Origin: Pegea sp. RAD2-039
Taxonomy: Eukaryota; Chordata; Thaliacea; Salpida; Salpidae
Reading direction: 5' to 3'
Length of the DNA: 64,000 nt
Assembly: GCA_034620365.1 (NCBI GenBank)
Contig: JAQGEQ010000071.1
Coordinates: 4,960,001 to 5,024,000 of the forward strand
Part shown: piece by piece, positions 1 to 63,619 of the stretch
How positions within the stretch are numbered: position 1 is the first letter of the stretch
Layout: the number at the start of each line of letters is the position of its first letter
Translations under genes and position numbers: made by a program
The notes under the pieces: model-generated
Told to the model about the DNA's origin: nothing
Seen by the model: the letters and a program-made list of their open reading frames with translations, nothing else
Database searches by the model: none

Positions 1-3000
1 GGAATTAGAGATCTGATAAAATTTGATGTTACTGATGGTCATAACCCACTAATTGATCGGTATTTTTACATCAGTATTGCTTATATGGATATTCTATTTC
101 CAAGAGTAATTAACAAAGGAGTAACGATAAAAGAAGGGGGACAAGTTAAATTAACAACAGGTAAAATAACAAGTAAAATAACAAGTAAACTATATAGTCA
201 AGTTAAGAACAATTTTTCATGATTTGTAAAACTGACTAAATATTCAAAACCAAATAACCAAATCTCTTAGAATAATTGTAGAAGTGGTTTGAATGAAGTA
301 GGTTTTTGATAATCAAAAATTACTTTTTCATTATTTAAAATATTTATATTTCAAACCAAAACTGCTTGAAAATATTAACCGATGCTGATGAAAATGTTAC
401 TCTAAGTTAAATAAGTGAAACTTGTATAGGTTTTTACACAAAGCTTACTATTCCATCTAAACTTTCTGAAACTAGAATATCTGTAAGATCTTTTGTGTTT
501 CCTTTCCGCTTTCTTAACGGTTTCATTAATAACTTTAACTCACATTAAAATGTTTTGATAGACATTTTGAGTACAGCAGATATAAATAGTGCTGACGAAG
601 AACTAACATTTACAATTGCACAAGCGCCAGCTCATGGCCATCTCGAATCAACTGATAGACCTGGTCTTCCTATAACTACATTCACTCAATTGGAATTAGC
701 AGGTATGCTCCAATACTTATCAACAAACTAATTCATTATAAGTCAAAGTCACTCCTAGTTTATCATTTTTTTATATTCATATTAATCTTGTTACTACAAT
801 ATCAGATATACCAGGTCACTGGTCCTTGCCACCGAACAGCAAATTTAAAAATTGGGACATTTTAGCGCACGTTACTCTCCACTATAATCAAAGCCAATGT
901 AGATGAGTTATGTTTGCCAGTTTAAACCTTTAACAGTTTTATAGTGATAATGGTGTAAGCTGATATCTGAAAGTCATAATTCTGCTTATAGGCGGTTCAG
1001 AGCATAAGTCGTCTTCGTCTAATGAGACGACATGAGCACCTGGCAAACATGCATCAATAATTACTTAGTGATGTATCTCACAATTGAGTTCAGAGCAACA
1101 TAAAATGTACTTATGAAATCTTTAGCTTTCAAAAGATATAAATATTTTAAATTTACTTAATTTAGGTAAATGTAATCTATCCAAATAAACGTTAAGTAGA
1201 TAAATAAGTAAATAATGAGGTAATTTAACAAGGCCATAGTCATCTACAGCAACACTTTGAAGATAAAAGACGAAGTAATTGGCTTGCATACTGACACATT
1301 TTGCTTCAAATAGTAATACTTCAATAGCATAACCATAAGAATAGTCAGTACAATAAATAATTTACAATCAAATATTAACAGCCAGTAGATTGCTAAGATC
1401 GGTAATACATATACGTAAGCCTTTTAGCTCTTGTCCTACATAACTCTGACCACTTCTAACAATAAAAGTCTTATCAAAGTTAAATTGTCGATATTAAAAC
1501 TTGTAAGGATGTTGATGGTAGAGCCAAGACTCAGTGTTTTAATAAGATTGCTGCATAAGTAAGCTGACATGAGGAATGCCTCTCTCGCTAAATTAGTCAA
1601 CATTAAAATATGAAGTTGACAATTTAACTAAGCTAATAGAAATAATAGAGCTTTCGACTGTTTGCTTTGCATGAAGTTAGGTTGAGTAGCATACTTTAAA
1701 ATCCAAACAATTACCTTTTTATCTTGCTGCACAGGCAACAAAATCAACTACGTACATACCGGAGATGATGAAGTCAAAATGGATAGTTTTGAGTTTGAAG
1801 TGACTGATGGGTATAATCCTGTGTATCGTACATTCCGAATTTCTATCTCAGATGTTGACAACAAAAAACCAGTTGTTACAATTAGTAAGGTGCAAGTGAA
1901 AGAAGGAAGTAGTAAACTAATCACACCGTTTGAGTTGAAAGGTAAGATTTTGATTTATGAAATATGTTTAAATACTAGAAACTGTTGCTTTTTATTCACT
2001 ACATTTAGAGGATTGCTTGAATATAACCTCTCCGTTAAAAATTCCATTCGAAAGGAATTATTATCTAATTATAAAAGGATTTTTCGCTTTCCTTAAACTC
2101 CTGGACGAGACTAAACTGAAGTATTTACAATACTTTGCACGAAAAGAAAATATAAACACAATAATATTATGCTATTATAGTATTACATTGGAATCAATTA
2201 ATTAAATTTGTGAATAAGACTAATCAAAGTAATAACGAAAAACAAACTAAAACATTTTTCGTGTTGAACTTTGAAAATATGTCCAACATTAAAGCCTTGA
2301 TATAAATAAATAAACTCTATTAGAAATTCAACAAGGAAACCTTTTAATTGAAGCTCATAACAACACGATTTTTAGATATTTGTTTTAATAAATAGTTGTT
2401 AAAAAATAAACAAAGCGTTTCGGAAAGAAAGTCACTTTACATAATATTCTTGTTTGTGTTTGATGTGCTTATATTAAATCACTGCATCAGTAGATTTAAT
2501 TACAATAGAATGCAGCGGATTATCGCTATAATTAATTGCTTAAATCCCATCAAACGTAAGCGTTAAATTCGGAGTTTTATCATTTAGTCAAATATTTATG
2601 AAGCAGGATAACGAAGCACTGAAAACGGTTTTAAGTAAAAAATATTTGAAATATTTTCAAATATTTTTCATGAGCACTCTACAGCGCCATCTAGCGTATA
2701 TTTCTTTTTATTTCTTGTAGTCAGATAAAAACTATGTTAACAAATTACTTCAATTAACATTGCTAACTTTTGCAGTTGATGATCGAGACACAGATGATGA
2801 GTTGTTAGTGATCCGAATTACTCAGATACCGATGCATGGCAAAATAGTAAAGAATAAAGATAAAGCAGTTCGCAAGTTTACCATGGTTGATTTAAATGAG
2901 AACCGAATCTCGTATAAACATGATGGTTCTGAAACTACTTCCGATAGTTTCTCACTTGTTGTTAGTGACGGGACTCACGATGATTTCTATGTCTTCCCAA

Positions 3001-9600: not shown

Positions 9601-12600
9601 TTTACAGTAACTGTCTTACAATTAACTAATCACATTAGATAAGTCTTATTATAAATTCATCCTATAATCATTTTTATACCAGATCACTTTATACTTTGTC
9701 TCTTTTTATTTAAATATAATCTTCAGTTTTACAAGATTGACATTTTGAAACTTTCAATGTATTATAATATTTAAAGAATTTTGTTTAAAACCAACTGACT
9801 TAGCTAAATTGTAAATATAAACAAATGAGAAAATTTTTCTTTTTAGATTTTTTATAAAATTGAAAACTGTAGTACAATTTGACTTTTTGTTTTATAAAAT
9901 GTGATAATTTTGACAAATGTTTTTTGACCAATTTTTTTCTTTATTCGAAAGTATATATATAATTATTTATTTATTCGTTTTCATTTTGTTCAAAAAATGT
10001 TTATAAGTTTAGCTCTAAGATAAAACACTTAATAAAGGCTTGTGAAACGTTTACACATTAATTTAGAAATATTATTTTCTCTTTAATTATGTTTACCAAT
10101 CATTTATCAGAAAGAAATTCAATAAAATCTTCTCAATATTTTGATGATCTTTTTTTTCTTTAGATACTAAACCAAACACAAATAACTATCTAATTCAAAT
10201 TCAAAATTTCTTGAAAATTTATGAAAATATAAACAATTTTCTATTGTTTTTGTAAAATGAAAATATTATAAATCATATTTAAAAAGTAAAATTTTGTAAA
10301 TAACTTTTATTTGAACGGAATTTTTTTTATTATTATTTATTCAGTTTTACAGTTTTGATAGCAAACAAAAATTGATTAATTTGGAAAATTATTTTCTTGT
10401 ATTTATTAGATACAGCACAAGGAACAACATCTTCTACACTAGGATCATTTAAAGACTTTATAAGCAGAGCTAAGGACTACAACAGCTTAATAAGGTAATA
10501 TTAAGAGTTGAAGAGAACTAATCAAACGTTGAAACATCAACCCAAGATCTATCTGACAAAATAAATCATATTTTTCTATGAATCTTCATTTTGATTTGCC
10601 TATAAAAAAAATTTCAAAAAATCGTATTTAAAAATGTGAATGTTGAGTTTGTGTGACTAGCTGAATTTATACCAAACACGGTGAACCCTTGTAAATGAGT
10701 CATTAGTTAGAGGTGAACTAATGACCAGGAGTAAAATAAAGATTACTTGGGATTTGGAATCACAAGCATTAAGGAATTAATGTTTAACCACTTTCAATTT
10801 GACAACTAAAATTTACTGCTTTTTCGAGATACAATTTTTGGAAAAAGTTTTTTAAAACAATGTCACAAAAGTTGAAAATGTTTGATATAAGAAAGAATCT
10901 TATAGGTTTTTAAAGTTAAAGATGTCTGTTTTGAAATCAACTTAGTTGATACACAAACAAAATTAAAGTTTGCATTTAAAATGACATCTGAAAGCGAAAT
11001 ATCAATGATTAAATAAAAGTAATGTAGAAAGTAGTTAACGCAAATCAACTTTCAGTGAAATTTTCAAAGTCTTCAATTTATTCTGTTTTCATTTCTACAG
11101 ATTTTCTCAAAACGAATCAGAGAAGTTTTGTCCTGTTGTAATAATTGACGACTCGTTGTATGAACCAGAAGAAAAGTTCCATGTAAAACTGACATCTGTG
11201 ATGAATGGAAGACTCGGTAACTTCTCAGAAGTGGAGGTCACCATCATGCCGGACACAAATGATGGTTGGTGTCTAATATCAACATACCAAAATTTGATAT
11301 GTTATTTGTAGAACCAATTTTCTATTTTGACAAACCAAGTTATGAAATTGATGAAAGCGCTGGTCAATTAGAAGTTCTTGTTTGGAGAACAGGGACAGAT
11401 TTAACACAAACTGCTTCTGTCACAGTTCAATCGCGTAAAAGTGACCCCGAATCCGCAATCGGTGAGTTCCCTCATTTTATTAAACTCAAACTTGTATTTA
11501 TCTCTTAAAAAATTTACTTTTAATTTCTAAATACAAAATAAACTCTTTACACGAAACATGAATCTGTTTCTATAAAAAAAACTTCTAGATATTTTCGAAG
11601 AGTAAATTTAAACTAAAATTGTTCCGATGAAGATACCAGTATAAGGTCTTGCTGATCTTATCACTTTAGCGTGGTACAGGTGCGAAAGTTACATTTGTTT
11701 ATTGACAAGCTCTCAACTAAGGGTGCGGTGAATTATACCGAAAAAAAAGATTATTCATCAAAGTCAATTTTGTCTTTTAGTTAAAATACAACTGTATAAA
11801 AAATTTTTGCGATTTAAAAATTGAAAGTGATAATTGTAAAAATATTTATGGCTTACGGTTTTCGCCAAAAATGGTTTTTATAAATATTGTTTTAGTTTTA
11901 CATTAATAAAAATTATAACTCAAACTGATAAGTACTTCTGAAAGTAATTTATAGAAAATTTGTGATAAAGTGATGTACATATTTGTAAGTCAAGAGTATT
12001 ACAGATATTTTTATACAGACCTTATTTAAGATCAAATTAATACTCATTTTTTATGCAAATAAAATTATTTTAAATTTCAACACGATTTATCAAAGTCCAT
12101 TTTATCATTTTGTTTGTTTATCTGGACACGGTCATTGACTACCGTGAGATAACTTGGCTATAACACTTGAACAGTGTTGCTGACCTATCCCAGAACCTTT
12201 CTTAATTTTTCTTAAGTGTATTTTTTGGAAATTTTAAAAGCTGTTCAGCTGAAAATATATCTACTGCTTTTTAACCACTTTGAAAATAGTTATTTACAAT
12301 CAACTGACTCAAATGAAGTAAACATAGAAGTTGTCCACGAAGAAAATCTGCAGTGCAAAGTTTTACTATGTCACTTGAAATTTTAGAGAAAATCTTATAG
12401 AATAGTTAGCTGGTTTACAAACAATTTTCTTTTTCTCTTCTTTCTTATGCTCTGAATCTTCAGCACACTATGTTTGTACCAACTCTTTTTAAAAACCTTT
12501 TTTGATGTCATGTCAAGCTTTGCTTCTCAATTAGTGTCAACCCACTAAATTGTGCACTTCTTCTTCTGCACCAATTTTCTTCAATTAACTTAAAGCTTTG

Positions 12601-15600
12601 AAAATATTTTGGACTAATCTTTTAAATCGAAGTAATGTTTAAAATAAAAGTTGATACCAACGATTTAGCAACAAACTAAAAGTTATATTATAAGAAAATA
12701 TTTTTTACAGTTAATAAAGACTATATAGGAATTAGTGAAACCTTGCAATTTGCTCAAAATGTTGATAAGCAAACCCTACAAGTGAATATATTAGATGACC
12801 TTGGAAATCCTCTACTAGAAGGGGAAGAAACATTTGACCTTTTGTTGAGTATGCCCACAAAAGGAATCCTCGGCAAACCTGATAATGTGAAAGTCACTAT
12901 TATTGATTCTTATAGCGATCGTGAGTAAATTTAGTATTCGAGGAATTTAGTTTAGCTTTTTGACCTTAAGACTTAATCTATAAATAATCGTTTACTTTCA
13001 GTACCTGTGTTCCAATTCAGTGAAGCAGAAGTAGAAGTAAATGAAGCCGATGGGAATGTTAGTATTGCTATTATTCGTAATGGAGATCTTTCGCAACCAG
13101 CAACAGTCAGATGTTACACTCGTCAATCAAGTGCACAAGTTATGATGGACTTCAAGGAAAGGCCCAACACCAATCAATCAGTTATTCATTTCGAATCCGG
13201 TAAGAGAGACACTGCAAATTACAAATTAGGTTTATTTGAAATAGAAATTTGTCGAATGTATGTGGTCAACCTAATTAAGGTGACTTAGTCTACTTTTATT
13301 TGTACCCTTAAAATCAATCTTAAGCTTGATAAAAGAGATCTATTTTCAAATACTAACAGCACGAATGATGATTGATTGAAACAGGCCTCAGTGGATTTAA
13401 ACTTAAAAAGTTAATTCTAATAATCTTTTAATGGCTTACTAAACCTTCATTGTCCTAAACAGTCAAACTAAATCATCTAACTTTCGGTTGTCTATTGAAA
13501 ATCTCAAAAAGTTTAATATGAAATTTCCAACAATTAACTATTTTGAAAGCCAAATTATTCGATACTTTCTAAAGAGATTTTCTAATTTCAGTAATAAATT
13601 CAATAATCTGTTCTGTTTAGTCTAATTTAACAAATGACTAAAGTCTAAGTTCGGTGTTTTATTATTCTATTGAAGTAATACACTATACACAAAGAAAATT
13701 AGACTTGTTTAGTAACCATAAAGAACTTATTATTCTTTTAAACACAAGTTTCTTTATTACCAAAATTAACTTTTAAAATTCCAGCATTTTTTCGTATTAA
13801 ATTATTTTACAAGAAATGCTATTCAAATATCGCTAGAAATTTTTGAGTCAAATATGTAAAGGTGGACTTTGAAGTATAAGCTTACTCAGCTTAATTCATT
13901 CGTTTCATCATGAAAACCTCTTTAGTTTTAAAATTACAAGGCTAAAAATGATGCTAACTTTTTTGTTCTCGATTGTATGTGTAAATATAGCATCTTTTGT
14001 GCTTCACGTTAAGCATATATTTTAGTATCTTAAACCTATTAATTTAAAAACGGAAACCTAATAGTTTTACTTTACTTTGCGTCTCAGAGAGTCTATAAAG
14101 TATGAAAGATTAAAGCCGTAAACCTTATATATATACAGTTTGATAAATGTTAAAAATATAAATTCTTGTTAGTTTGTACAGTGATCCAGTGAAAGTATTA
14201 AATATTTGTTTTTCAAAACAAACTACTATTTTCGGAAAGTTTAAATAAATTGTTCTTGCAACTTATAAAATTTGTGTTTAAAACTCTTGACAAATGTGAA
14301 TGAGAAGCAACACGAATTGTATAAACTGATTTATTCAATTCTGTCAACATTAATACCTGTAAGAATTGGGCGTTTAAGAACATAAACTTAAGTAAGCTTT
14401 GAAAAATACAATTCTAGTTTTCCATATATGGATTTAAATTCGAGATCTATTAAAGAACAAATATTATATCTTTTTTTGATAGTAGATCACGATTCTAATC
14501 AAATTATCGACGCTTATTACTTCTAACTAATAAGGTTTTAAGAGTTCGGTAATGATATGTACAAATATTCTGAGAACCTTAGAAGCTTTCAACAGTCATA
14601 GCTATTATATGATTGATGAAATCTTTGAAAATTTTAAATCATTTATCAACCACAAAATTGGATTTTGTACTTCTTAATATTCAAAAATTGCTGTGTAAAA
14701 ATCTGTAAGAGAAGTATTTATTCTACAAGAGATTTTACATTAATAAATTTTCATCTGAAATTTTAATGCTAACCAACTAAATATATTATAATATAGGTCA
14801 CAACAAAGTAAACTGTACAATTCAACTAGTTGATGACAGTCTCTACGAAGAAGATGAGACATTCCGTTTACTTCTTGGATCACCGCTCAGTAACTCAGCT
14901 ACAAAGTCTCGGCTTGGTCTAATTCGGGAAGTTCTGGTTACCATCAAGGACAATAGTGATAGTGAGTATAAACTGCTTGCTAGTACATTTCTAAATATCT
15001 GTCATGCTACATTCAACCTAATAGCCGATTTGAACAGCTTAAAAGTAGAGTTTTTTGGACCGCCTTAGAGAAACTATGCAATGATACGCTTACAGAAGGA
15101 TAGTGCAGATAGAAAAAACTTTCATGTTGAAGCTACACTAAATTAAAGAAACTGAAAAGCGTTGTCGCGTCAAAGTACTCGGAAACCAGCAGATTGAAGG
15201 GACTAATGATCTAGTGATTATGCCACGTGTGTTAGGGATCTATCTTTCCAAAACTTTGGTTTCCGTTGTGATAGTTCTTAATTCACGTTATAATTTGCAA
15301 ATCTAAAGATTCTTCTCATCTCACGAAGTGTTTTGTGGATAAAATAACCAACTCTTAGCACTTTAATGCGCTGATCCAAGTTTTCGTTCATCTTTTTTTA
15401 TGATAAACAGATTAGAGAAGAAAAAATTTCGAAATATCACTTCTTCTACACAGCTAAGGACATGTACCGATATGTTATTACCTCCAAATTTTTTTTAATG
15501 TCACTTGAAAGGAATTTTTGCTTTGACATTTTCATTTACTTACAGAACCTACTATCGGTTTCAACAAAAGCGTCTATGACGTTATGGAGCCACGATCAGA

Positions 15601-23138: not shown

Positions 23139-23258
23139 TCAGGATTTAGATAGAAATTGTATTCAAAAACTCGTGATGATGAACATTTATAAGAAAATAT
23201 GAGATTAAAAGTAGAAGAAACAACATTCTTGATGAAAGAAATTCCCTGGACCTTCTTC

Positions 23259-23264
23259 AATAAA
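23259..23264 (+). terminator. Candidate poly(A) signal of gene A
   Basis: AATAAA lies about 120 bp after the gene A stop codon and is followed by T-rich sequence with TTTG and GTT runs. It is the first canonical hexamer after the stop, but in AT-rich DNA such hexamers are frequent, so it is supported mainly by position. Confidence 0.5.
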
Positions 23265-49000: not shown

Positions 49001-52000
49001 AACTATTCATAAGCCAGTTATATTTTCATTAGTCAAACAACATATTTAACTAGAAAACTATATAGCAAACTGAAGTTGTATTGTCTGTTCATTTCGACAA
49101 ATTCATATTTAGTATTTTAGTAAAATCAAAATTCCTCAGCAACATGATTATTACAAAATGATTTCAGTTTCATTTGACAATCTTTACAAAATTAGGACAT
49201 TGTTCCTTTTTAATGTTGAATTAGGATTAGTGCACGCAATAGATAATTTATTTTACTTTCATTTTTCAAAAGTGCCTTAAAAATTTTTCCCAATAAAAAA
49301 TTCATCTTAACTCTATAAAACATTTATCAGATAGATAGTAAAGGGCAAAATATCCGCTTTTAAAATTCCATGATCTTCAATAAAACGTATTCATACTTAA
49401 GACTAAACTTTTTTGCAGTAAATTATATTAAGCAAACATAAAAAACAGCTACAAAGAGCTGTTATATAATCTTTAGTTATAAAACGAGATTAATCAAACA
49501 ATTTAACTGAACATAGTTTAACTGATCTTCCTCATCTCATTTATCTTCAATAGCTTGATGAAAGACTTTTAGGTAGGGTCGAAAAGTTGACTACGTTCAA
49601 CTACAAAGTCAAAATTGAGTTTTTTGTTTTACAATTCCATTAAATTATGTGTTTAAGACATATTAAATAAGATGAAGATGTTGTTTATAGTATTTTTTAA
49701 AACTAATTACTTTTTTACAAAAATTAAAATAAACCTCATGACTTGCTCTATAAGAAATTTGCAAAAGACAAAGCAATAAAGTTTATGTTCTTACCTAAAA
49801 TTATCAAATTTTTCGGACGTCTGATTCTTTGTTTAATATTTGTTACTCAAATCACTACGACAGTTTTATTGTAAAGCAGTAACTGAAGTGTTTACAAACC
49901 TTACTGTTGATTTTTATGCAAACAGAACTCTATCTTGGAATTCAATATTTCTTGAGAGAGAACCTTGTTGATGTCAATTAGTAGCTAAACAAGCACCATA
50001 AATTGCAGAATTATTTACAAAGTCAATGTTTGTCGTTAAGATAACATTCAACATAATAAAAACAAACTTGAGTTGTTAAACAAGCTTATAAATGTTTAAA
50101 ATGTTGCTTGCTATATTTAGTTTTTTGTTAACTACCTTAATTTTGTAATCTATACCTCAAAAATGTTCAAGCAAAAAACAAACTCTTTTAATAGATTAAC
50201 TATTTTTTAACTTTTTATATTTTAAAGCGAAATATAATTTGAAATTGATAATGTATAAAGGAAGAATTTGGAATAGCATTGATAGTTATAGTTAGAGCTA
50301 TACAAAATTAAAAAATTCGAAGAAATTATTTTAATTTAAAGCTGGTAAGAACAATCAAAATTTTTAATTTTTTTGTAGGTGAAAATGAATTGTCTGAGCA
50401 AGTGTTCAATTTAAACTGGGCGGTTATATCGTTAGAAAATGCTACTTATAAAGTTAATGAAACTGAAAAATATCTACAAATTACATTACTTCGTCGAGGT
50501 TACTTAGGAGAAACCTCTTTTGTTAGTAAGTTGCAGAAGAAACTTATATAAGATCTGTAAATACTTTGTTAAATTGCGATTTATTTTTATGTCTAATACT
50601 TTTATTGAGAGCTACTTTTTGTGTTTCAAGCAATCGCAACGAGAAACGGGTCAGCAAAATCAGACGTGGATTTTGTTGGTAAATTGTCAAGTCAAGTTCA
50701 GTTTAATCCTGGCCAATCTGTTGCTACATGGAAAGTTAGAATCTTACAGGTAACGATCATTATTCAAAAACTACTATTAAAATAAAAGAAGAATAATAAT
50801 AACGTGCTTAAAGGATGAAAATTATGAAAAAGAAGAACATTTTTTTATTGATCTTTCTCAACCAGTTATGTCAATTCTTGAAGAGCCGAAATTTGCGAGG
50901 ATAACAATAACAGATCAAGAAGATGGTAAGACTTGTTTGAATTATCAAAACAATCAAGCCAACAACATTTATCAAAACTTTGATTGTTATAACCTTGCAT
51001 AAAAAATAAATATTTAAATTAGTTTTTGTATAAACTAAAGTCAAGTGTTTAGATTAACTGTTGAAGTACTTGAGTAATTAATTTCTACTATTATTAGCTG
51101 TATGGTAATTAAACTTCATCAAATAGAATCGACTGTCTTCATACCAAAGAAAGCTTATAAGATAGAGGAAAAACACGGGAAGTTTATGGTACCTGTTCAT
51201 CGTAGTGGAGATCTTTCTATTGAACTCATGGTGATCTGCTACACCGCATCAAGTTAGTGTTTAACCTCTAAATCATCAATTGCTGTAATTATCATTTTCT
51301 GATCTTAAATTTTTAAGCATTGACAAAATTAAATGTAATGAGCTGAAATTTTCAACAAGATTTATTTGTTCTTGTCATTTTTACAATATGTTTAGTAATT
51401 AAAAAGTAATTGAAGACAAGATTTGTAGATGTTACCCAACAACCTGACACTTATATGAGATTTTATTAAAGAGCTTTTGGCATTGATTAAGTATTGATAT
51501 ATGTCTTTAATTATATTTTTATAATAAGTAATAAAGTAGACTCACACTTCTGGATTCAAGGACTCTCAATTTTTAACGATATAATTCGTGTTTAATTCTG
51601 TAGCCGAGGAGTTTTTACAACATTAGTAGCTGATTCGACCACACTAAGTGTGTGCCCTCATATAGAGCTTGAACCAGTCTCGCTTCTGCTTTAAACAGTT
51701 AAAACTAAAATCTATTAATCATAACTAAGAGTTAAAAAATGATATATCAGAGAACTTGTAAAGATTAATTATTTTTTCTGTAAAAATGTTTCAATTTAAC
51801 AATTTAATATCAGATTATGTTTTGATAAAAGATAAAAATGAAATTGTATTCTAAATCAGTAAACAAAAAACGACAAAATGTGAAAAATATATCTAACTTT
51901 CAAAAGCTTGTCCTCCTGATAAGCCAACTTTTAATATTTATCTTAATCCCACTATCAAATTATCTTCCAAAGACTTGAGTTTTACTATCAGTAAGCGAAA

Positions 52001-55000
52001 CGGAAACTCCTAAGAGTCGGAAATTTAGAGAATATCTAAAAACAATAAACCTAGATCAACAAATGTCTATAAATGAATCATTTATTTTTTTATTTCCAAC
52101 CTCAATATCTACAAATACTCAGTATAGAAAATGAGTCATTAAGATAAAACTGATCCTCTTGTTATGTAATCTGTTATATCTTATCCATTATTTTTTCCGG
52201 CTTACGTATAAGACCTGAAAAAGTTTGCTAAACAGTCCAACACAGATTTCCTGTCTCTCTGTCTTCTTCCTTTATAAGCTATAAAGTCTTATTTCATTTT
52301 AATCTAAATCATATTATATGTCTTGGGATTGAGATATGAACAGTTTATTTTACTTTTAGATTAAGATTAATTGTAATTTAATACTTACAAACTTAAACTA
52401 CATTTTATTTATTTTTGTGACGGTATCCACAATTAAAATATTTTGCAAGAACTTTATATCAAACAATACTTTAATTTAAACAACTTTTTGTTTGGTTTTT
52501 TGTAAGAATGGTATTTGTTAAACTGATTTTAAACATTATGTAACAAATTCAAAATATTGATAAAAGTATACAAATAAAGATACTTTTTTCAGGTTCATAC
52601 TTTTGTATGCATTAATAGCAAAACTTCTAAAAGGAACTAATTTTTCATTCAAAAACTTAATCAACTAAAAACCAACTTTAATTGTACAATATTGGCAGAG
52701 AAATGAATTTTTTATAAATTTAAATCAAACAAGTGTCGATGAAAATAAAACAAGTATAAACTGCTTTATTTCTGTTTATGTGTAACAGTTAAATAACTTA
52801 CAGCTGCAATTCTCATCAAAAAAGTATGAAATAAACTTTATTAATTTGAACTAGTCTGGTAAAGTTATAATATCATCAATTTTAATAACCTTCGAACTTT
52901 GAATAAAGCACAAAGTTTTATTAAAAACCAGTTACTTAGACTTGCCAACTTAATCTATAAGAACTCTATAACCAATAGCACCACGGCAAAAAACTTGTTT
53001 TACAAACAAGTTGCGTGCTTGGTGGTCTAGGTTGCTGAATACTCACCTGCGAATAGCAAGACCGAGTGAACAGTTACCTTAATGATAGCGTATATACTAT
53101 AAAAAAGTAGCAAGTTACAGTAACAAGTAACGCTTTTGCAAAAGTAAACTTTAAGAGCAAAATATTCTCAATTAAAGTACGTAAAATCGATTTTTTAATT
53201 AGTAAATGTCATTTCAGGGTAACACAGTTGAATGTTTACACTAATGTCTAATTATTTTATTCATTTTTTGTCTGACAGCAATTATTCTAACAATTATTTT
53301 TTCAAAGTAAGTTTTGGTAGCAATCAAGATAATACTTTTAAAAAAATTGAATATTTGTTTTAAACACTAAAGCGAAAAGAAAGTGAAAGTTACAAATAGA
53401 ATGTAATAAATTTGTGAACTTTGTAGATTTAAAATTGCTGTAATCTAATAAAAATCCTCCTAAACATTTTGTTTTATTGACAGTAACAGCAACTGGTACA
53501 ACATCATCAACTGTAGGATCATTTAAAGACTTTATAAGCAGAGCTGAAAACCATAACAGTTTAATCAGGTCTTTTGTGGAAAGGAAGATACAAAGAACAC
53601 CATCATCTACTTTTACTTTCATTTCCACAGATTTTCTCAAAACGAATCAGAGAAGTTTTGTCCTGTTGTAATAATTGACGACTCGTTGTATGAACCAGAA
53701 GAAAAGTTCCATGTAAAACTGACATCTGTGATGAATGGAAGACTCGGTAACTTCTCAGAAGTGGAGGTCACCATCATGCCGGACACAAATGATGGTTGGT
53801 GTCTAATATCAACATAACAAAATTTGATATGTTATTTGTAGAACCAATTTTCTATTTTGACAAACCAAGTTATGAAATTGATGAAAGCGCTGGCCAATTA
53901 GAAGTTCTTGTTTGGAGAACAGGGACAGATTTAACACAAACTGCTTCTGTCACAGTTCAATCGCGTAAAAGTGACCCCGAGTCAGCAACCGGTGAGTTCC
54001 CCCTCATTTTATTAAACTAATATTTCAAAGAATCTATATTAACTCTTTCCAAAAGACCCCTTTCAAAAGAGCCCAGATAATTAATTCCCAAAAACTGTAA
54101 ACTTCTTGTTAAAGCTTTTATAACTCTAATTTCTTACATAAGAGGTTTTTCTACCTTTAGTAGATGAAGAGAACATATTTTATTCTTGTAAAAAATATTA
54201 AGTTTGAAAATCATTGAATGAAGCAGCAGGTCATAAGATACCTTGAATGATAAATCTTTTTATGAAAACGGTTTTTCGTTGAAATTAAGTTTTTCAAGTC
54301 ATATTTATATTAATTAAAATATAAAGTATCTTTGCTTGGCAAGAGTTTATTTATCCTTAATTTGGGTGAGCTTATAAAGAAAGAAGATTATTGATTTATT
54401 AAAAGACACTACTCTAATAAACAATTATATTTAAAAATCGAAATGATGATGGAGATTGTTTCACCTAAAGCATGATGAATCATTCACAAGTTCAAATAAA
54501 TTGTTACTTAATGTAAGAATTTAATTTCAAAATGTATAAAATTGCTTGGAACAATTTAGATTGACTTTTATAATTAACTTTGTTATCATTTATTAGTATT
54601 TATAAGTTTTAAAATTAAAAAAATTATTTTTATAAAATCAAATAAAAGTATTAACACCTGTTGCTGATGGGTGGGCTTTTATTACTTGTTGTGGGTAAAG
54701 TTTTAAATATTTAATCTCAGCACCTTTCTATTTCCGATTTTATAATATTGGCTGAGATAATGAGATTAAAATCTAAAGAATTCGTCAACATTATGACAAG
54801 TACCTTTTATAATTGCATTTACTAATCTATTTGTTTGAATATTTTTAAAGCTTAATTTTTTCAAGAAGCTGGTATATATTTAATAATCTAAATAAATCTT
54901 TAAGTAAATCTCTTCAAAATATTTTTGCTCTATAGATATATTAAGTACATGTAACATCTTCCAATAACTTTCATAACTATGAAGTGTTTTTCTATGACGA

Positions 55001-58000
55001 CATTTGACATTTACTTTAACAAAAACTACAAACTAAGCAAACATTTTAATTACAATTTATCTATTTAATTGAAGTTAATTACAATTACTAAGAACTAGTG
55101 AAATGTCTTACAAACAGTTAAAGTATTGAAAAAACAGGAACAAACTAACACAAGCAGTTAAAAAGTTTACTGACGACGCTGTGTTTGTAATTAACCTTTA
55201 TTTTTAGCGTCGTTTAATTACTTTACTGATAATGATGCAACGAAATAAGAATTACAAAATAAATTGTTATCGAATAAACTAAACATTTTCAAAAGATGTA
55301 ACTGAAAAAAGAACATTTTTTTCCACTTCAACAAGATCTTCTATGTCTGTAAGCACATTTTAGGGTGAGCAGGTTAAAAAAAGAAGACAAAGAAAGTAGA
55401 AAAGTTGCTTGATAATTGAGTTCAACATGCATTTGAGTTGTGCCAAACACATGATTAAATCTCTTCTGTTTTACTTACTGAGTCGGCGTTAGCTTATCAG
55501 CAGGCTCCTATACAAACAGCTCTTATGGATGGCCAGCTCTGTCTCTTTATCCTTTTTCATGGTTGAAAGTAGTTGTGAAAGTATGTTCACAAAAAATTGG
55601 AGTCTTTTTTTAAGAAGCCAGACTGATTCAGTTAATCTTCCTAGAGTCTCGTTCCAAGTAGCTATGAGCTGTTAGGCAGAAGCGCAATACCATGACGAGT
55701 ATTTAAAGGTTTTGCTTCGTTCAGAGACATCAGTAAGAGTTAAGCAAATAGGTGATCTTAAAAATACGTGATTGGTAATTTGCATAGAAAAACACAAAAA
55801 TCGTTGAAATGAAATCTTTTTGAGTATTGTACTTCAATGAATAGATTAGATAAAAATATTAAAAGCAACAAAGATTAATCTTCAAATATGTAACGACTTA
55901 ACATGATAACTGGAATCCATCTTCTTCTTTTGTGAAATCTACTTTTAACCAACTGATTAAACTAATTTTCATATAAAACCCATCAATCAATGAAAGACAA
56001 TATTTTCAATCTTTCAGAGGATTATTTTATAAAATTTTATAATTTTTTAACTGTTACATTCTTATATCAGCTTATTAGTGCTCCAAATACAATTAATAAT
56101 TTCTAATAAGTTTAAATTTATTTATTTTAGCAAATAGTGATTATATTGGAATCAGCAAGACTTTGGAATTTGCTCCTGGAATCAAAGAACAATCTTTCTA
56201 TGTGACAATATTGGATGATTTGGGAAATCCTTTTCTTGAAGGGGCAGAAAGCTTTGAGCTTTTATTACGAATGCCTATAAACGGGGTTCTTGGAGAACCA
56301 GAAAAAGTTCAAGTTATCATCAATGACAGCCACAGTGACTGTAAGTTGTTCGTTTAGAGAGATATTTTCACAATAAGTGTTCTTCAGTTTATCATAAAAC
56401 GACTTATAACAGCTTGTCCACTTTGCATTCATAACAAATCTAAGAATAACCTTTTTACTTTCAGTACCTGTGTTCCAATTCAGTGAAGCAGAAGTAGAAG
56501 TAAATGAAGCCGATGGGAATGTTAGTATCGCTATTATTCGTAATGGAGATCTTTCGCAACCAGCAACAGTCAGATGTTACACTCGTCAATCAAGTGCACA
56601 AGTTATGATGGACTTCAAGGAAAGGCCCAACACCAATCAATCAGTTATTCATTTCGAATCCGGTAAGACAGACACCGCAAATTACAAATTAGGTTTATTA
56701 GAAATTAAAGTAAAATAAGCTTACAATAAAGTTGTTTATTATAAGTTTTTTGTAGCAAATATTGTTTTAGAATTAGAAACCAAAATATAAGCGATAAAAA
56801 ATTCAAATTTTCAGATTTAATTTCTTTTTGTTTAATAATTTCTAACTTGATTTCAAAAATTAGTTTAAGAAGTTATTATTTTGAATCAAAATTCCTGTTT
56901 TCTACATTCTATTGGCTTATTAGTTGACCTTTCTATAAATGTCTTCAATTTTCTTTTGATAAGATATCGGCTGACTTTAATTACAATTTTGTTAAAAATA
57001 AACTACTAAAGTTTAGAAGACAATAGCTCTAAGTTATGTTTTCAATTTTTGTCATTAACCTCTTATCAGTAAAGTTTTTTACCTGCTAAACACCCAGAAT
57101 TTACTTAATGAAACAAATTTAGTATCGCTCCAATGGTTTGGTAACAGGTAATTGGATTTTTCACTCGCTAAATGCTCTGAGCTTACTCAACAGTCTAAGG
57201 ATTGAGTTGAGACATTTTTTTTCGAAATTATAAAAATCGCAAACATTTTAAAAGTGTTGAAAAAATTTCTATTTTTCAAATATCTGTAAATGTGTTTGAG
57301 TCATTTGTTTAGTAATGATTCAAATTTCAAGTAATAGCTTTATTTAAATTCTTTAAAACTTAATTTGATGGATCATAGTTGTCAGCTTTTCAACAAGTTT
57401 TGAAAAAAACATCCGAAACCTTAACAAAGTTGAAAGCTATAATTTTCAACTTCTAAGAACAAAATCTTTTATATTTCTAAACTTTACAATAAACTTGCTT
57501 TAACTCAAGTGTTATAAAGTGAAATCTATTTGCAAAGAAAATTTATTATGAATAAAATACCTTCTAAGACATTAAGAAACTTACAAAAGTTTTGGTATTA
57601 TTCAACACTTTTAATACTTTGCCTGCTCAGACTATTAGATTGTCAGTCTTGTTCTTCTTAATGACACGTCTGATACTGCCATTACTATATTAGCGTAAGA
57701 TCGACATAAAATAGTAGTCAGACTTTTATGTATGATCCAATAATGTTGAATCTTGTAAATAAAACAAAGAGTTTCTTCAGTCAGCTGAAATGAATTCAGT
57801 AAAGAAAGTTTAATAGGAAATTCGAATTTTATTATTAAATTGAAAGAAATTCATAAAATCGAAGTTGGCATCATTAGATTGAAAGTTTCATTTTTCTAGG
57901 TCAAAGCAAAGCTAACTGTACTGTGTCTTTGGAAGATGATTTCATCTATGAAAAACCCGAAAAATTTCGTTTAGTTCTTGGATCACCAATCAGTGAATCT

Positions 58001-61000
58001 GTAGGATCATCTTTACTCGGAAAGATCAAGGAAATCCTTGTTACAATTAAAGATGACGTTGACAGTAAGTTTCCTATTTATTGTTGTCTGGATGTCTGAA
58101 CGATATAGAAACGGAATAAAGTCTGAAACCACTTTTTTAGTTATCCGCAAATTAAGGAAATTAATTTGATTACTGCCGTTATACTAAACATCAATGCTTT
58201 CATCATTAAACAATGGACTGTGCCATTATAGCTTGGTTTCTTCGGTAGTCTACTCATAAACGAGCACTAGCTTTTATAAAAGTGTTTAGGTCGTAATTTT
58301 TTGCTCACAATTTCCTGGCAATCAGAGCATTAGACTTTTGGTTTCCTACTTTGAAACAGTTAAGAGTTTGCTAAGTTTGGATTAGACTCTTATCTAGCTG
58401 GTAAAAAGTATTATTATGTTTCATATTCAAATTTAAATTTATAAAAGTGATGAAATATTCTAAAAACTCTTAATAAATCGATTATTTCATTTATTTGAAA
58501 TAGAAAAAAACAATAACACAAACTTAATTTTGTGATTTTAATGTTACCATTTGTGTTTGTTTGAAGCACTTTTTGGATTTATCCTTAACTGTATTCATTG
58601 TTTTAGAGCCCATTATTGGATTTTCTAAAACCATCTACAACGTTTTGGAACCTAAAACTGAAGACGGCGTGTCTAAAGTTCGAGTTTCCGTTAAACGTAG
58701 TGGAGATAGTAGCAAAGAATCAATCATTCGACTTTACACTAAAGATGGAAACGCTGAATCTGGGAAAGATTACAATCCAGTTAGCAAACGTAAGCAGTAT
58801 TCATTTAAATATTGAAACAGTATTTAGAATCGACTTTTTACTTTGTAAATACATTTTGATAAAATTTCAAGTAATTTTAATAAACTAGTTGGTCACAGCT
58901 ACAATTTACTTTGGCTGAAATTGTTCAAGTTATATACTCTAATGTCTTGAGCTAAAAGCCTTTATTATCTTTATTTTAGTTGTTCGGTTATTGAATGTAA
59001 AACACTTAAACTGAAAAATTTAAACTTCATTGAGTCGGTGCATTTTGAATATTTAAAAAATTAAAAATTGAACTATTTAAAATTAAAAAAAGAATATTGA
59101 TAATAAATTATGAGTTTTAAATATTTAATAAAAATTACCTGATATGGATATCTTGAATCTATATATTTTTTATCTAATATCTTATATATTATTAGATATT
59201 TGTTAAAAATAATAAAGTGTCAAAATTAATATCAATAAATTGAATTTTAATCATTTTAAAACATATTATTTTATTAGATACTTTTAAAATATTTAAATAA
59301 AGTTAAGATATTATATAATATGAATCCTTAAATTCTTTATAGTTGACAAAAACTTATTGTTTATTGGGTAGAAATACCCGAAAGATGTAAGATTGAATTT
59401 TTTTATGGGTTTTTCTAAATTGTTTTCAACTTTCTAATCAGCTAGTCATGAAATTTGATATGTCTTGAATATTGCAGAACTAACTTTCTTGAAAGGAGAG
59501 ACTGATAAAGTTGTTGAGGTTGAAATACTGCATGACAAAGAAAGAGAAATTCGAGAGTCATTTACAGTGAGATTGGAAGACGATGAAAATCTGGTGGCCG
59601 AAATCAAGGTGCTTATGTACTACTAGTTGTTAAACCCTTCTTTGTTGTATTGTGCTAGTTTAACCTTAACATGATTTGATTAAACATATCTTTTTTTTCC
59701 TTTCTGGCCTCAACATCTTTAAGTATAGAGTAATCAAATCCCTGACAAAATTTATCTTTATTTATTTACACAATAGATGATACTTACTGACAAGCAGTAG
59801 ACAGAAAATGATCTACTTTGTTTATATTTTGAAGAATGACCGAGCGATAATTTACATAAATCAGAAGATATTGGCAGACGTAACATTCCCATCAAATCCG
59901 ACAGTAATATCGCTTCGAGATTACGATGATATGGCAACCGCTCCTAATCACCCTCCACCTGGTTATCCAGTCATATGTGTCTCGGTAAGTGGAGCTTTAA
60001 CCTAATTCAATTTTGTCAGATAAGATTTAATATAAATTATAAGGATTATTACAAAATGAATTGATTGAAGCTACAAATTCGATAATCCAATTTCTAGCAG
60101 TCTTTGATTCAAATTATTTTTAAAAGAAAGATTTAATATGAATGATATTAACAAATTGTATTTTCTTATAGTCTTGTAATCCAAAACACGCCAATTACGA
60201 TAAAGTTTCTTCAATTTGTGGAAGTGAAGAAATTAATGACACAGCGACTGAATTCAGGTAGTTGATCAGTCTTTTAATTGTTACTTTAGAACTGTATTAA
60301 CCTGACAGAAATTATCTAAGATATTTACCATTTTTTGCAATTTACTTTTTAGGTGGTTGGTTGCCGCGCCTAGTAGTGATGACGGTGTTACAAACCCACT
60401 TAAAGAGGTTTCACAGAACACATTTTTCACGGACACAAACATGATCACCTTGGATAGCATCTACTTTAAACAAGGAAGCCGAATATCTTGTGTCGCACGA
60501 GCCGTGAACAATGATGGTGAAGCCGGTTTGGAATCAACATCAGATCCAATCACAGGTTCTACTTTTATAATTTTACCTAAAATTAGATAAAAATAAGAAA
60601 ATTTGGCTTTCAGTTAGTAAAACCGAGGCAGTTTGTCAATCCCGAATACCAGGATCAGTTGGAGCTGAACCTTTCTCAGCACATATTCGTTATACTGGAG
60701 CTGATGATAAGAATCATCAAAATCTTGTCAAGATCACAGTTTCGATGCCTCACGTAGATGGAATGCTACCAGTAATTAGTACTCGTCAATTGAGTAACTT
60801 TGAAATCACTTTAAGTCGTGATGGCACAAGAGTAGGAAACCACAGGTGCTCTTGAAACAAATAACAATTCAGCTTCAGTAATAATTTATTTGGTTTTTTA
60901 ATTAAAAGATGTTCAAATATAATTAATTTTGATGAGCTGAAGACTAAATTTGGATTCTTGAACAATGGAACCCGTGATCCAAACACAATCGGAGAAACTT

Positions 61001-63619
61001 TCAGATATCAGTATGACTCAAACTTGAGAGGTTCAAGAACTCTACAATTCTACAGGTCCGTTTCAACAAGTCTAAATGATTCTGTAAACATTTGTTTAAA
61101 TGATTTGCTAATCTTCTGCCAGAAACCTGAAACACGAAGCTTGCATGTGGGAGTTTACTTCCTATTACGACATGACTGAACTGATTCAGGAATGCGGAGG
61201 TAGTGTTGGAACTGACGGTCAAGTAAGCATCATTTACTTCATAACATCGTCGAAAAATTAATATTTTTAGGATCCAGAGATAAATTAGATATTTTTAGGT
61301 TCTGGATCTTGTTCAATCTTATGTATCTTTGCGCATACCTCTCTATGTTTCTTACATTTATCACTCGCCAGTTGGTACTGGTTGGCAACATTATGATCAA
61401 CAAACTGAATTGAGGATGACATTTGTGTATGATACGGCAATTTTATGGGATCAAGGAATCGGTACTCCTCCTGAAGCTGAGCTACAAGGTTTATTTCACA
61501 AAAACTTTCATAGATAAATTAAATCATAAATTTTTTCATCGGTGATTGTTAAAGTAAACTTTTCAAGTGCCAAATAAAAGGGTTGAATAATAAAATTACT
61601 TCAAAAAAAACGTTTTTAAGTCAGACAAGCTTAATTGGATATTTAATTATGCTCTGCTTAATTTTTTAATCTTAACCTGCACCGATTAAGCAGTCTGTAA
61701 AAAACTGATTAACTTTTTCCGGCTGTATCATCTCTTCTGCATTGTTCGTTTTTTTTCAGGTCATTTGTATCTGTCAAGTATGCGAATCCGAGAAGACGGA
61801 AGACTTGTTGTTAACTTCAGAACAAAGGCAAGATTCCACGGCTTGTTTGTTTCTGAACATCCTGGAACAGATGTAAAAGCGATGGTGATGAGTTCCTCAC
61901 ACTCAGAGTTAACGATGACTTTAAACCTTGTCCGGAGTGCTGATACATATAACAATCCTGAACAAAAGTGGACATTTGTGTCAGACTACGCTATACGTGA
62001 TTATTCTGGTACCTACACTATCAAGTTGATCCCTTGTACAACTCCAGCTCATGTAAAGTTCACTCCAAATGTTGTTTGTAATCCAAGAGACCCACTTAGT
62101 TTTGAGATACCTATTAGGTTTCAACAGGTAATTGTTTGTTAAAATCTCGTTTTAAAGCTTTTTTCGGACTCAAGTTTCTTGTTTTAAGCTTTTAGTAATT
62201 CGAAAATAGTTTAAGGTCGATTAAAAAGAATTTGATTGGCTGATTAAATTTGAAATAACTCTGATCATCATTTAAAACTTTTTGTTTTCTACAAACTCTA
62301 AGATTTATTGAGACATAAAACCTTAAAAATGACATAAAAAATAATTGTAGTTATAAACATTTCATCGTTCTACAAGTTGGTTGTGGAAATGAAACTCTTT
62401 TTTATTTGCTACAAATATTGAAACTGAATTTTGCTAAAACTAATTTTCTTTCACTCAAAGGTCAGTGATCCAGTTGCTGCACACTTTAGTCTCAACACCA
62501 ACTTTTATCTACTAAGCAAGAAGTCCCTGTATATGTCAGATGGTTCAATGGGATTTGCTGAAGATAGTGATGCCGCTTTTGTAGAAGGTTTGATTTGAAA
62601 ATTATTTTAGTTCTACTAATAAAATCTCCTCAATTATAGGTGCTGAAATATTCGGTCGAGTTGTAGTAGATCCAGTTCACAACCTCGGTAGCTCGTTTGA
62701 TGCTAGTATTGAGAAAGTGTTTGTGTGTAGTGGCCATGATGGTTATGTCCCTAAATATGACCCAGAAAATGGAGAGTATGGGTGTTTAGCGGACACTTCA
62801 ACACTTCGTCATCAGTTTAAAGTCTTGGTAAGATTTAAACTTTCAAATTAAAAATGATGGAAAAAACTTTAATGAATCATTTTTAGGATAAAGAGCAGCC
62901 TGACACTCAGGATGTTGCTGCTGACTCTGTTAAGTTCAAAGCAAAACTTGCTTTAGATGATCCAGAAGCTTTTTCTCTTCGACAACAATCTGGAACCGAT
63001 GGCTTCCGTATGGATTCAGCTCCTTTATTCACAGTACGTTTAAACATTTTAAAAGTAACACAAGAGAAACCCTTGAACAACTTTATTGAAGGTAACAGCA
63101 GGCAGGGAATGGTATTTGCATACAATCTACACTGTTCGTGCCCTCGACAACCAGCGTATCAGAAGATCGATTGTACATCATGCTTTAAGACCAACCAATC
63201 ATCATTCCCTTCACAAACGCGAGTCGGACCAAGAACTTTCTGAATCAATTGGAGAAGAGCATAATCGTGGCACTCAAATGATGCATGTGAAATTAGTTCG
63301 CAAAGAGTCCAAAATGAGAATTAGTGGATACGGTGATGAAGAAGATGATCTTGTGAGCAGTGATGTTGGAAATAAATCCAGTTTCAACATCATACTTCCA
63401 GTAGTGCTTGGAGTTTTAGTTTTAATTGTTGGAAGCAGTGTTGCCATTTTTATTCTTCGTAAAAGTCGACAAACAGATACTGAATATATTGCTGGCAGAA
63501 AAGAAAAAGTTGAAAAGTATACTTCGAAAAATAAGCCCAAGGAAGTGAAAACTAGTATATCTAGCGCTGGCAGGACCAGTAGTAGTGGTTATAGTAGCTC
63601 CGACGGATCCGAAGTCTGA
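33277..63619 (+). CDS. FREM2: FREM2-like gene B, complete, 43 coding exons, 3106 residues
   Basis: Fraser-complex matrix protein with signal peptide, N-terminal region, 12 CSPG/NG2 repeats (about residues 250-1688), five Calx-beta domains (about 1689-2335), conserved C-terminal ectodomain, transmembrane helix (3031-3053) and tail ending DGSEV. FRAS1 shares the repeats but has N-terminal VWC and furin-like modules, absent here; FREM1 and FREM3 have fewer Calx-beta domains, so FREM2 fits best. Exons: 33277-34023, 34078-34518, 34759-34955, 35174-35264, 35391-35651, 35937-36110, 36190-36337, 36958-37133, 37523-37733, 37932-38176, 38228-38885, 39191-39357, 40266-40529, 42902-43073, 44355-44522, 44618-44758, 45217-45423, 45950-46456, 47709-47798, 50379-50525, 50631-50749, 50814-50925, 51127-51252, 53484-53568, 53631-53794, 53842-53991, 56131-56340, 56465-56662, 57900-58064, 58607-58789, 59478-59608, 59835-59984, 60172-60257, 60353-60555, 60614-60845, 60909-61055, 61123-61222, 61299-61488, 61760-62127, 62461-62587, 62640-62827, 62887-63033, 63092-63619. 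Summed length is 9321 nt, a multiple of three, with no internal stop. Confidence 0.93.
34078..40529 (+). CDS. FREM2: Gene B exons 2-13: CSPG/NG2 repeats 1-8 and start of 9
   Basis: Each repeat can be followed by its linker: [88 protein letters not shown] and [11 protein letters not shown]. Each then has a D-x-D-x-x-D stretch (such as ATDTDTND) and a YxHxGSExTSDxF-like strand. Repeat borders fall inside exons. The donor at 38177 (GTCATA) is weak, but skipping this 51-bp intron would bring a stop, and splicing restores [14 protein letters not shown]. Introns 34519-34758, 35652-35936, 36338-36957, 37134-37522, 38886-39190 and 39358-40265 hold no gene. Confidence 0.9.
40530..42901 (+). other. 2.4-kb intron of gene B, no gene seen
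   Basis: Intron 13, between CSPG repeat 9 halves. It is AT-rich, with no coding-like open frame on either strand and no recognised repeat. Confidence 0.6.
42902..47798 (+). CDS. FREM2: Gene B exons 14-19: CSPG/NG2 repeats 9 (end) to 12
   Basis: Six exons (42902-43073, 44355-44522, 44618-44758, 45217-45423, 45950-46456, 47709-47798) joined in phase 1. They carry [77 protein letters not shown] and [16 protein letters not shown]. Exons 15-19 are the counterparts of the first five gene A exons. Introns 43074-44354, 44759-45216, 45424-45949 and 46457-47708 contain no recognisable gene. Confidence 0.9.
43074..44354 (+). other. 1.3-kb intron of gene B, no gene seen
   Basis: AT-rich sequence between exons 14 and 15; only short open frames and no recognisable element. 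Confidence 0.6.
45214..45444 (+). repeat. Identity tract 1, gene B copy
   Basis: Partner of 1732-1962; one mismatch in 231 bp. Introns on both sides differ from gene A (downstream intron 526 bp here, 834 bp there). Confidence 0.9.
45929..46322 (+). repeat. Identity tract 2, gene B copy
   Basis: Partner of 2755-3148; three mismatches. The end lies within exon 18, after FKFTKN. Confidence 0.9.
46457..47708 (+). other. 1.25-kb intron of gene B, no gene seen
   Basis: The gene A counterpart (3280-3587) is 308 bp and not similar. Nothing recognisable was found. Confidence 0.6.
47799..50378 (+). other. 2.6-kb intron of gene B containing an unexplained open frame
   Basis: Counterpart of the 4.75-kb gene A intron but without visible similarity to it. 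It contains an 85-codon open frame at 48617-48874 (listed separately). The rest is AT-rich and featureless. Confidence 0.6.
48617..48874 (+). other. Unexplained 85-codon open frame inside a gene B intron
   Basis: Directly after an acceptor-like ATTTAG, an open frame of 85 codons without a start Met reads [18 protein letters not shown], then [17 protein letters not shown] and [21 protein letters not shown] in part, ending TGA at 48872-48874. The composition is more coding-like than the flanks, with two cysteines and one N-glycosylation motif (NST). It does not fit the phase-1 reading of the surrounding exons, which would meet a stop after eight codons, and no FREM2 sequence is missing here. 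It could be an exon fragment of an unrelated gene or chance; I do not recognise the family. Confidence 0.35.
50379..50925 (+). CDS. FREM2: Gene B exons 20-22: Calx-beta domain 1
   Basis: Exons 50379-50525, 50631-50749 and 50814-50925 encode [41 protein letters not shown] and [14 protein letters not shown], ending with the phase-1 donor after DQED. The [11 protein letters not shown] motif is strongly conserved in FRAS1/FREM2 proteins. Lengths equal those in gene A. Confidence 0.92.
51127..53794 (+). CDS. FREM2: Gene B exons 23-25: Calx-beta domain 2
   Basis: Exons 51127-51252, 53484-53568 and 53631-53794: [48 protein letters not shown] and [17 protein letters not shown] with an intact acidic loop. 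The intron between the last two is only 62 bp, against 606 bp in gene A. The third exon lies in identity tract 3. Confidence 0.92.
51253..53483 (+). other. 2.2-kb intron of gene B with a hairpin
   Basis: It contains a perfect 9-bp hairpin at 52992-53012 (AACTTGTTT, loop TAC, AAACAAGTT) followed by a less AT-rich stretch to about 53080 with a weak tRNA A-box-like TGGTGGTCTAGG. No B box follows, so no tRNA is called; a decayed SINE is possible. The rest is AT-rich without genes. Confidence 0.5.
53618..54018 (+). repeat. Identity tract 3, gene B copy
   Basis: Partner of 11088-11486; includes the complete 47-bp intron 53795-53841. Confidence 0.9.
53842..56340 (+). CDS. FREM2: Gene B exons 26-27: Calx-beta domain 3
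   Basis: Exons 53842-53991 ([18 protein letters not shown]) and 56131-56340 ([20 protein letters not shown]). The first follows a 47-bp intron that is almost identical to that of gene A. The second is diverged from gene A. Intron 53992-56130 is described separately. Confidence 0.92.
53992..56130 (+). other. 2.1-kb intron of gene B with a compositional island
   Basis: Mostly AT-rich, but about 55430-55750 is clearly richer in G and C than its surroundings (GAGTCGGCGTTAGC, GGATGGCCAGCTCTGTC). No open frame of note on the plus strand. It may be an old mobile-element fragment or a regulatory element; the gene A intron (11462-12710) shows no similar piece. Confidence 0.4.
56454..56705 (+). repeat. 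Identity tract 4, gene B copy
   Basis: Partner of 12991-13242; four mismatches, of which three are in the intron part. Confidence 0.9.
56465..58064 (+). CDS. FREM2: Gene B exons 28-29: Calx-beta domain 4
   Basis: Exons 56465-56662 ([19 protein letters not shown]) and 57900-58064 ([20 protein letters not shown], acidic loop). The first is in identity tract 4; the second is diverged. Intron 56663-57899 shows no gene. Confidence 0.92.
58607..59984 (+). CDS. FREM2: Gene B exons 30-32: Calx-beta domain 5 and linker
   Basis: Exons 58607-58789 ([36 protein letters not shown]), 59478-59608 ([19 protein letters not shown]) and 59835-59984 (ending PGYPVICVS). The acidic loop is degenerate (HDKEREIRE), as in gene A. 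Introns 58065-58606 and 58790-59477 are non-coding; the second is extremely AT-rich around 59040-59340. Confidence 0.9.
60172..63033 (+). CDS. FREM2: Gene B exons 33-42: conserved FREM C-terminal ectodomain
   Basis: Ten compact exons (60172-60257, 60353-60555, 60614-60845, 60909-61055, 61123-61222, 61299-61488, 61760-62127, 62461-62587, 62640-62827, 62887-63033). Key stretches: [89 protein letters not shown] and [19 protein letters not shown]. Conserved cysteines (IPCTTP, VVCNPRD, VFVCSG, YGCLAD) suggest disulphides. Introns here are short (52-333 bp) compared with gene A. Confidence 0.92.
60348..60847 (+). repeat. Identity tract 5, gene B copy
   Basis: Partner of 18090-18589; two mismatches in 500 bp, includes the complete intron 60556-60613. 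Confidence 0.95.
61780..62099 (+). repeat. Identity tract 6, gene B copy
   Basis: Partner of 20199-20518; no mismatch in 320 bp. Confidence 0.95.
63092..63619 (+). CDS. FREM2: Gene B exon 43: furin-type site, transmembrane helix, PDZ-ligand-like tail
   Basis: The exon begins [20 protein letters not shown] after a 58-bp intron, so 175 residues are encoded here. RIRR followed by S (about 63155-63166, residues 2953-2956) fits the furin consensus RxRR. A 23-residue helix (63389-63457: [14 protein letters not shown]...) is followed by RKSRQ. The tail is serine- and lysine-rich and ends SSSDGSEV before TGA at 63617-63619; its S-E-V end fits a class I PDZ ligand. Ectodomain shedding and GRIP1 binding are known for vertebrate FRAS1/FREM2; they are inferred here. 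Confidence 0.9.
   Translation, partial: VTAGREWYLHTIYTVRALDNQRIRRSIVHHALRPTNHHSLHKRESDQELSESIGEEHNRGTQMMHVKLVRKESKMRISGYGDEEDDLVSSDVGNKSSFNIILPVVLGVLVLIVGSSVAIFILRKSRQTDTEYIAGRKEKVEKYTSKNKPKEVKTSISSAGRTSSSGYSSSDGSEV

Follow-up and report, generated by a model that had tools for sequence, protein, structure and literature searches.

In the copepod Tigriopus californicus, gene conversion in the pairs GOT1Sd/GOT1Sr and GOT1p1/GOT1p2 was reported to be largely restricted to exons beside an intron that cannot be aligned (PMC3728101), and in human Xq22.1 concerted evolution of the 5′ UTR was reported for the BEX/WEX/GASP genes (PMC1274310). More generally, a review of duplicated genes describes that conversion keeps the copies alike until it becomes restricted, after which they diverge in a clock-like manner (PMC3924837), and it has been hypothesized that introns hasten the differentiation of tandem copies and thereby shield them from homologous recombination (PMC9220161). 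A second review, in its part on homology requirements, places the homology length for efficient conversion near 200 bp and finds conversion mainly above 80% identity; it does not rule out shorter homology and lower identity, so these limits are not absolute (PMC3924818). Here we describe a pair of tandem genes in which both states, concerted and escaped, appear to be displayed side by side ten times.

The DNA under study, hereafter the window, is a 64-kb stretch (C1:4960001-5024000; C1 is contig JAQGEQ010000071.1) of the 105.7-Mb assembly of Pegea sp. RAD2-039, which comprises 387 contigs. The window contains two FREM2-type genes, A and B, placed head-to-tail, with gene A present only in part. 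The region compared extended beyond the window by 110 kb on the upstream side and 90 kb on the downstream side. Forty-four collinear exon pairs were picked by hand from protein matches between A and B, many cross-matches caused by repeats being set aside, and splice sites were placed by a script that required the reading phase to agree at each exon junction. Identity within the near-identical tracts described below caused the automatic choice of three boundaries, the end of exon 17 and the starts of exons 18 and 35, to stray into introns, and these were reset manually to standard splice sites. The whole model of gene A (C1:4947480-4983138, + strand) begins 12.5 kb before the window and has 44 exons with an open frame of 3101 aa. 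Its 3′ part occupies positions 1..23138 of the window (+ strand), from exon 15 (from -7) to exon 44, with phase-consistent junctions in the paired gene model. Gene B is complete in the window (33277..63619, + strand) and has 44 modelled exons and an open frame of 3104 aa. In these models, which were made from genomic DNA, both frames are open up to a single terminal stop, and the 44 exon pairs, chosen as collinear, chain in phase through A and B; together with the two genome matches for each of the four tracts searched (see below), this indicates that copy number and gene order are unchanged. Non-coding DNA makes up 69-74% of the gene span (A, B).

A Pfam scan of the gene B protein detected Frem_N, 12 Cadherin_3 (CSPG-type) stretches and 5 Calx-beta stretches. 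This domain set matches what we take to be the architecture of FREM2, i.e. a Frem N-terminal domain, about 12 CSPG repeats and 5 Calx-beta domains, which supports the predicted assignment of the pair as FREM2-type. Proteins of this type have a membrane-spanning segment near the C-terminus; the last exon of A and of B encodes a hydrophobic stretch in both translations, and Pfam hits there were found only below the curated cut-off.

The surroundings of the pair contain various repeats. A dispersed family is represented by pieces of ~70-280 bp that are 73-98% identical, with copies near window coordinates -95172, -76071, -23155, 64879, 99392 and 132404. Three tandem arrays lie outside the window, at window coordinates -92823..-91735, -59057..-57630 and 88028..88831; the spacings observed in the arrays are ~60 bases, tens of bases and multiples of ~27 bases. 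Some 43 kb past the downstream end of the window there is a direct duplication of ~4.8 kb (C1:5067316-5072103 and 5075542-5080373, window coordinates 107316-112103 and 115542-120373), which is 96.8-97.7% identical and has no stop-to-stop ORF of at least 110 codons on either strand. Telomere-type repeats in the assembly are TTAGGG, and a search for the COX1 family was negative.

Proteins A and B are 72.5% identical over 3093 aligned codons, and this average conceals two very different levels of similarity. Exons that lack a tract (32 of the 44) have DNA identities of 51-81%; the original prediction was correct in describing the neighbouring exons as diverged, the actual range being wider than the approximately 60-75% that it gave. 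Silent sites outside the tracts are saturated or close to it: among the 32 tract-free exons pS spans 0.45-1.02, and only exons 24, 33 and 38 fall below 0.6, the other 29 having values of 0.6 or more. When exons are taken with 30-nt flanks, DNA identity outside the tracts is ~62% and the longest perfect run measures 32 bp; perfect runs inside the tracts reach up to 320 bp.

Tracts were called with a two-state HMM on exon-plus-flank alignments, using hand-set mismatch rates of 0.45 (background) and 0.015 (tract) and discarding segments of fewer than 60 columns. Ten tracts were obtained, of 136-614 columns each, and 31 of their 3171 columns differ (0.98%). Six block pairs had been listed before. 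All six are real and were found at the stated coordinates by self-comparison of the window, where they correspond to T5-T10; the remaining four tracts (T1-T4) were missing from the list because they pair the 5′ part of B with the portion of gene A that lies upstream of the window. All tracts are on the + strand, and positions without contig name are window positions. T1 is located in exon 8 (A C1:4953210-4953362, B 36954..37106; 3/153 columns differ), T2 inside exon 10 (A C1:4953761-4953896, B 37960..38095; 1/136), T3 inside exon 11 (A C1:4954041-4954654, B 38237..38850; 6/614) and T4 inside exon 13 (A C1:4956584-4956759, B 40323..40498; 4/176). T5 covers exon 17, extending 3 nt into the preceding intron and 21 nt into the following one (A 1732..1962, B 45214..45444; 1/231), and T6 covers 21 nt of intron and the first 372 nt of exon 18 (A 2755..3147, B 45929..46321; 3/393). 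T7 comprises 14 nt of intron, exon 25, a whole intron of 47 nt, exon 26 and 25 nt of intron (A 11087..11486, B 53617..54018; 8/402, two of the eight differing columns being one 2-nt indel). T8 contains exon 28 flanked by 11 and 7 nt of intron (A 12991..13236, B 56454..56699; 3/246). T9 comprises exon 34, a whole intron of 58 nt and exon 35, flanked on the outside by 5 and 2 nt of intron (A 18090..18589, B 60348..60847; 2/500), and T10 is located inside exon 39 (A 20199..20518, B 61780..62099; 0/320). The whole introns copied in T7 and T9 contain one difference apiece.

The DNA between the tracts is diverged, for up to 7.9 kb between neighbours. The gap between T2 and T3, which holds diverged exon and intron, measures 144 nt in A and 141 nt in B. 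In the DNA, T5 and T6 lie 792 nt (A) and 484 nt (B) apart, and yet their products abut in the protein (in B, aa 1421-1490 and 1490-1614). The intron between them (within window positions 1732-3147 and 45214-46321) is diverged, and only ~21 nt next to each of its splice sites are alike.

Of the 31 differing columns, 25 are coding substitutions, four are non-coding substitutions and two constitute the indel in T7; transitions (22) outnumber transversions (7). The coding differences amount to 18 silent and 7 amino-acid-changing codons, not counting among the 7 one intron-split codon whose changes sit in the next, unconverted exon. Divergence per tract ranges from 0 (T10) to 2.27% (T4), and differences are scattered in nine of the ten tracts. 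They number 12 in the 600 columns within 30 columns of an edge versus 19 in the 2571 deeper columns, a contrast with a built-in bias since the edges themselves are defined by mismatches. Introns are largely left out of the tracts: non-coding DNA accounts for 220 of the 3171 tract columns, as against 69-74% of the gene span, and no edge reaches more than 27 nt into an intron. Several edges are sharp and fall within exons, namely the right edges of T1 and T6 and both edges of T10. Exons 17, 25, 26, 28, 34 and 35 are converted almost end to end and have dS values of 0-0.10; exons 8, 10, 11, 13, 18 and 39 are converted in part, with whole-exon dS of 0.08-0.47. At tract edges the silent difference drops from ~0.8 to near 0 across a few bases. 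The exon-by-exon comparison of A and B thereby revealed the step-like silent divergence that had been predicted for conversion. Outside their tracts the converted exons are as diverged as the other exons, or more so, with a protein identity of 54% (150 codons) and a DNA identity of 57.8% versus 62.6% in the other exons.

Four-fold sites differ at 8 of 413 positions inside the tracts versus 301 of 484 outside, and amino acids are identical at 970 of 977 versus 1261 of 2103 positions (13 straddling codons omitted); these contrasts are descriptive and do not constitute a test, identity itself having defined the tracts. A run test that is independent of the tract calls was performed on the 2187 degenerate codons that are identical in amino acid. 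The longest run of identical codons was 105, and 2000 shuffles gave a maximum of 36 (mean 18). The near-identical runs are not due to chance. The 12 converted exons exceed the remaining 32 in length (Mann-Whitney P 7.8e-4, or 5.5e-5 when exons 1, 2 and 44 are omitted post hoc), an excess that would be expected under any conversion model. The signature of GC-biased conversion was not seen in GC3, which inside and outside the tracts is 29.5/28.2% in A and 29.6/30.0% in B (Fisher test P 0.52 and 0.77, calculated from near-identical earlier counts).

A third gene acting as common donor was considered and rejected for the tracts searched, because genome-wide searches with four of the ten (T3, T5, T9 and T10) gave two matches each. 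FREM/FRAS-like Cadherin_3 repeats are present at three further loci, C42:24-34 kb, C6:3.56-3.57 Mb and C6:1.10 Mb. The pieces compared with A and B, 10 kb each from C42 and from C6 at 1.10 and 3.56 Mb plus 5 kb from C34, showed no DNA match to either gene. Positions 1-4550 of contig C34 copy part of the FREM/FRAS-like locus on C6 (C6:1098001-1108000, from base 5442) at 99.56% identity (4559 columns, in which 11 mismatches and a single gap opening occur); judging from this near-identity and the contig end, the two are apparently alleles. For comparison with other tandem genes, two pairs and one further copy were selected from 65 P450 matches. These are young tandem duplications on contigs C78 and C80, and their main matching pieces are 90-98.5% identical and extend past the P450 stretches. 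Lacking a saturated background, these young duplicates cannot tell whether patchworks of this kind are common in the genome.

Taken together, these features are best explained by DNA-templated ectopic gene conversion between the head-to-tail copies A and B, as had been proposed originally; we consider conversion very probable and well supported, its preference over another copying process being inferred from the sequence comparison. Exceptionally strong selection on these exons, at the protein, RNA or codon level, would agree with the identity of 970 of the 977 tract amino acids. Near-identity, however, covers introns and breaks off abruptly in the middle of exons whose remainder shows the 54% protein identity (150 codons) given above. 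Selection on the protein is insufficient to produce this pattern, in line with the original argument, and selection at any of the three levels strikes us as the most far-fetched of the alternatives. Nearly as improbable is conversion mediated by RNA or cDNA. It would account for the contiguity of T5 and T6 in the protein despite the diverged intron between them, but is contradicted, unless the template was unspliced RNA, by the whole introns in T7 and T9 and by the 220 copied non-coding columns, including the ~21 nt shared at the intron ends next to T5 and T6. The rival named in the original prediction was a local merge of the two copies, by assembler or polisher. The data consist of a single animal's assembly without reads, and this assembly does retain an apparently allelic contig (C34 versus C6, 99.56% over 4559 columns). 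Merged reads should nevertheless yield identity or differences at the allelic level, whereas 31 differing columns, which involve 18 silent and 7 amino-acid-changing codons, are scattered over nine of the ten tracts, and the tract divergence of 0.98% is about four times the mismatch rate of 0.24% (11/4559 columns) between C6 and C34, the sole allelic yardstick. In addition, the window and the fetched flanks contain zero N, and short-read polishing would presumably confuse only copies that were already near-identical across the read length. A local merge is weakened by these observations and is unlikely.

A separate issue is when the copying took place. Conversion had been described as repeated. 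This is plausible, but the spread of differences among the tracts is compatible with a single age (P 0.097; 0.145 if the indel is scored as one change); without a significant age difference among the tracts, repetition over time is not demonstrated, and one burst also fits. The islands would be new if later separate conversions, or one multi-patch event, had acted between exons that were already diverged. The single age of ~1% divergence and the sharp edges inside exons (on the right of T1 and T6 and on both sides of T10) are compatible with such late copying, and the ten collinear patches could reflect a long heteroduplex that was patchily repaired in one event. Against it, the longest perfect run of 32 bp and the ~62% identity outside the tracts are under the usual requirement as given in the corresponding part of the review cited above (PMC3924818), and up to 7.9 kb of diverged DNA lies between one tract and the next. 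Set against the published limits, this background makes fresh conversion look hard and survivors more likely. We therefore treat late copying as the main rival, though the less likely reading, and lean somewhat towards the ten islands being survivors of concerted evolution that were not re-created later. The stricter proposition, that they have been homogenised without interruption since the ancient duplication while their surroundings became saturated, seems to us evenly balanced.

Under the reading of the islands as survivors, an old tandem duplication would have given rise to genes A and B, which ectopic conversion, i.e. recombination repair off the neighbouring copy, would then have held alike. 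The introns would have been the first to diverge, breaking the homology into exon-sized pieces. Short exons may have dropped under the length or identity required by recombination and escaped; long exons, plus the two exon pairs linked by a very short intron, could have gone on recombining. The outcome would be ten near-identical islands, with the rest at or near saturation. The plausibility of this scheme, and only that, was addressed by simulating mutation, intron indels and homology-dependent conversion with hand-chosen parameters. With eight settings of 8 replicates each, a state of ~12 islands was reached in four settings, in 31 of the 32 replicates run there, and the other four settings never decayed to 12 islands (0 of 32 replicates). 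At ~12 islands, simulated islands hit the observed exons with a probability of 0.44-0.45 and other exons with a probability of 0.19-0.21. Six settings with lower rates (8 replicates each) left on average 0, 0, 0.375, 0, 0.375 and 5.5 island exons, and three further settings gave 34.25, 43 and 43. In this model an intermediate island state is possible, but only within a narrow range of rates.

The FREM2-type pair may exemplify duplicates that cease to be kept alike piece by piece. If homogenisation has indeed been unbroken, the pair would show concerted evolution in the course of being lost exon by exon, with the lengths of exons and introns deciding which parts of the protein may diverge. The contrast between islands and background makes the length and identity needs of conversion testable in this animal. 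A single dS, or a single tree, calculated from such paralogues would blend two very different ages.

Among the open-access matches listed there was no paper with a title on FREM2 gene conversion. Exon-restricted conversion as such is already published, and what is distinctive here is the contrast, in a pair of 44 exons, between ten islands and other silent sites at or near saturation. The pair resembles copepod GOT1 in that conversion takes place between paralogues, the p1/p2 copies being described as a mosaic of high and low divergence (PMC3728101). It differs in that the coding regions of GOT1Sd/GOT1Sr are described there as having no substantial divergence, with conversion inferred in several populations; the coding background of the FREM2-type pair is at or near saturation, and its 44 exons and ten islands are known from one assembly. 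In BEX/WEX/GASP one segment is also homogenised while the adjacent coding region diverges, but according to the account in PMC1274310 this segment is a motif of the 5′ UTR whose G+C is raised, whereas the islands described here are coding exons in which GC3 is not raised. The early divergence of introns and the resulting decrease in recombination between tandem copies agree with the proposal outlined in PMC9220161, which is a hypothesis on the retention of duplicates; here the subject is the exon-by-exon survival of homology in one pair. Finally, termination of concerted evolution, as presented in the relevant part of PMC3924837, is a phase of a duplicate pair, whereas in the FREM2-type pair it apparently proceeds piecewise, one exon after another.
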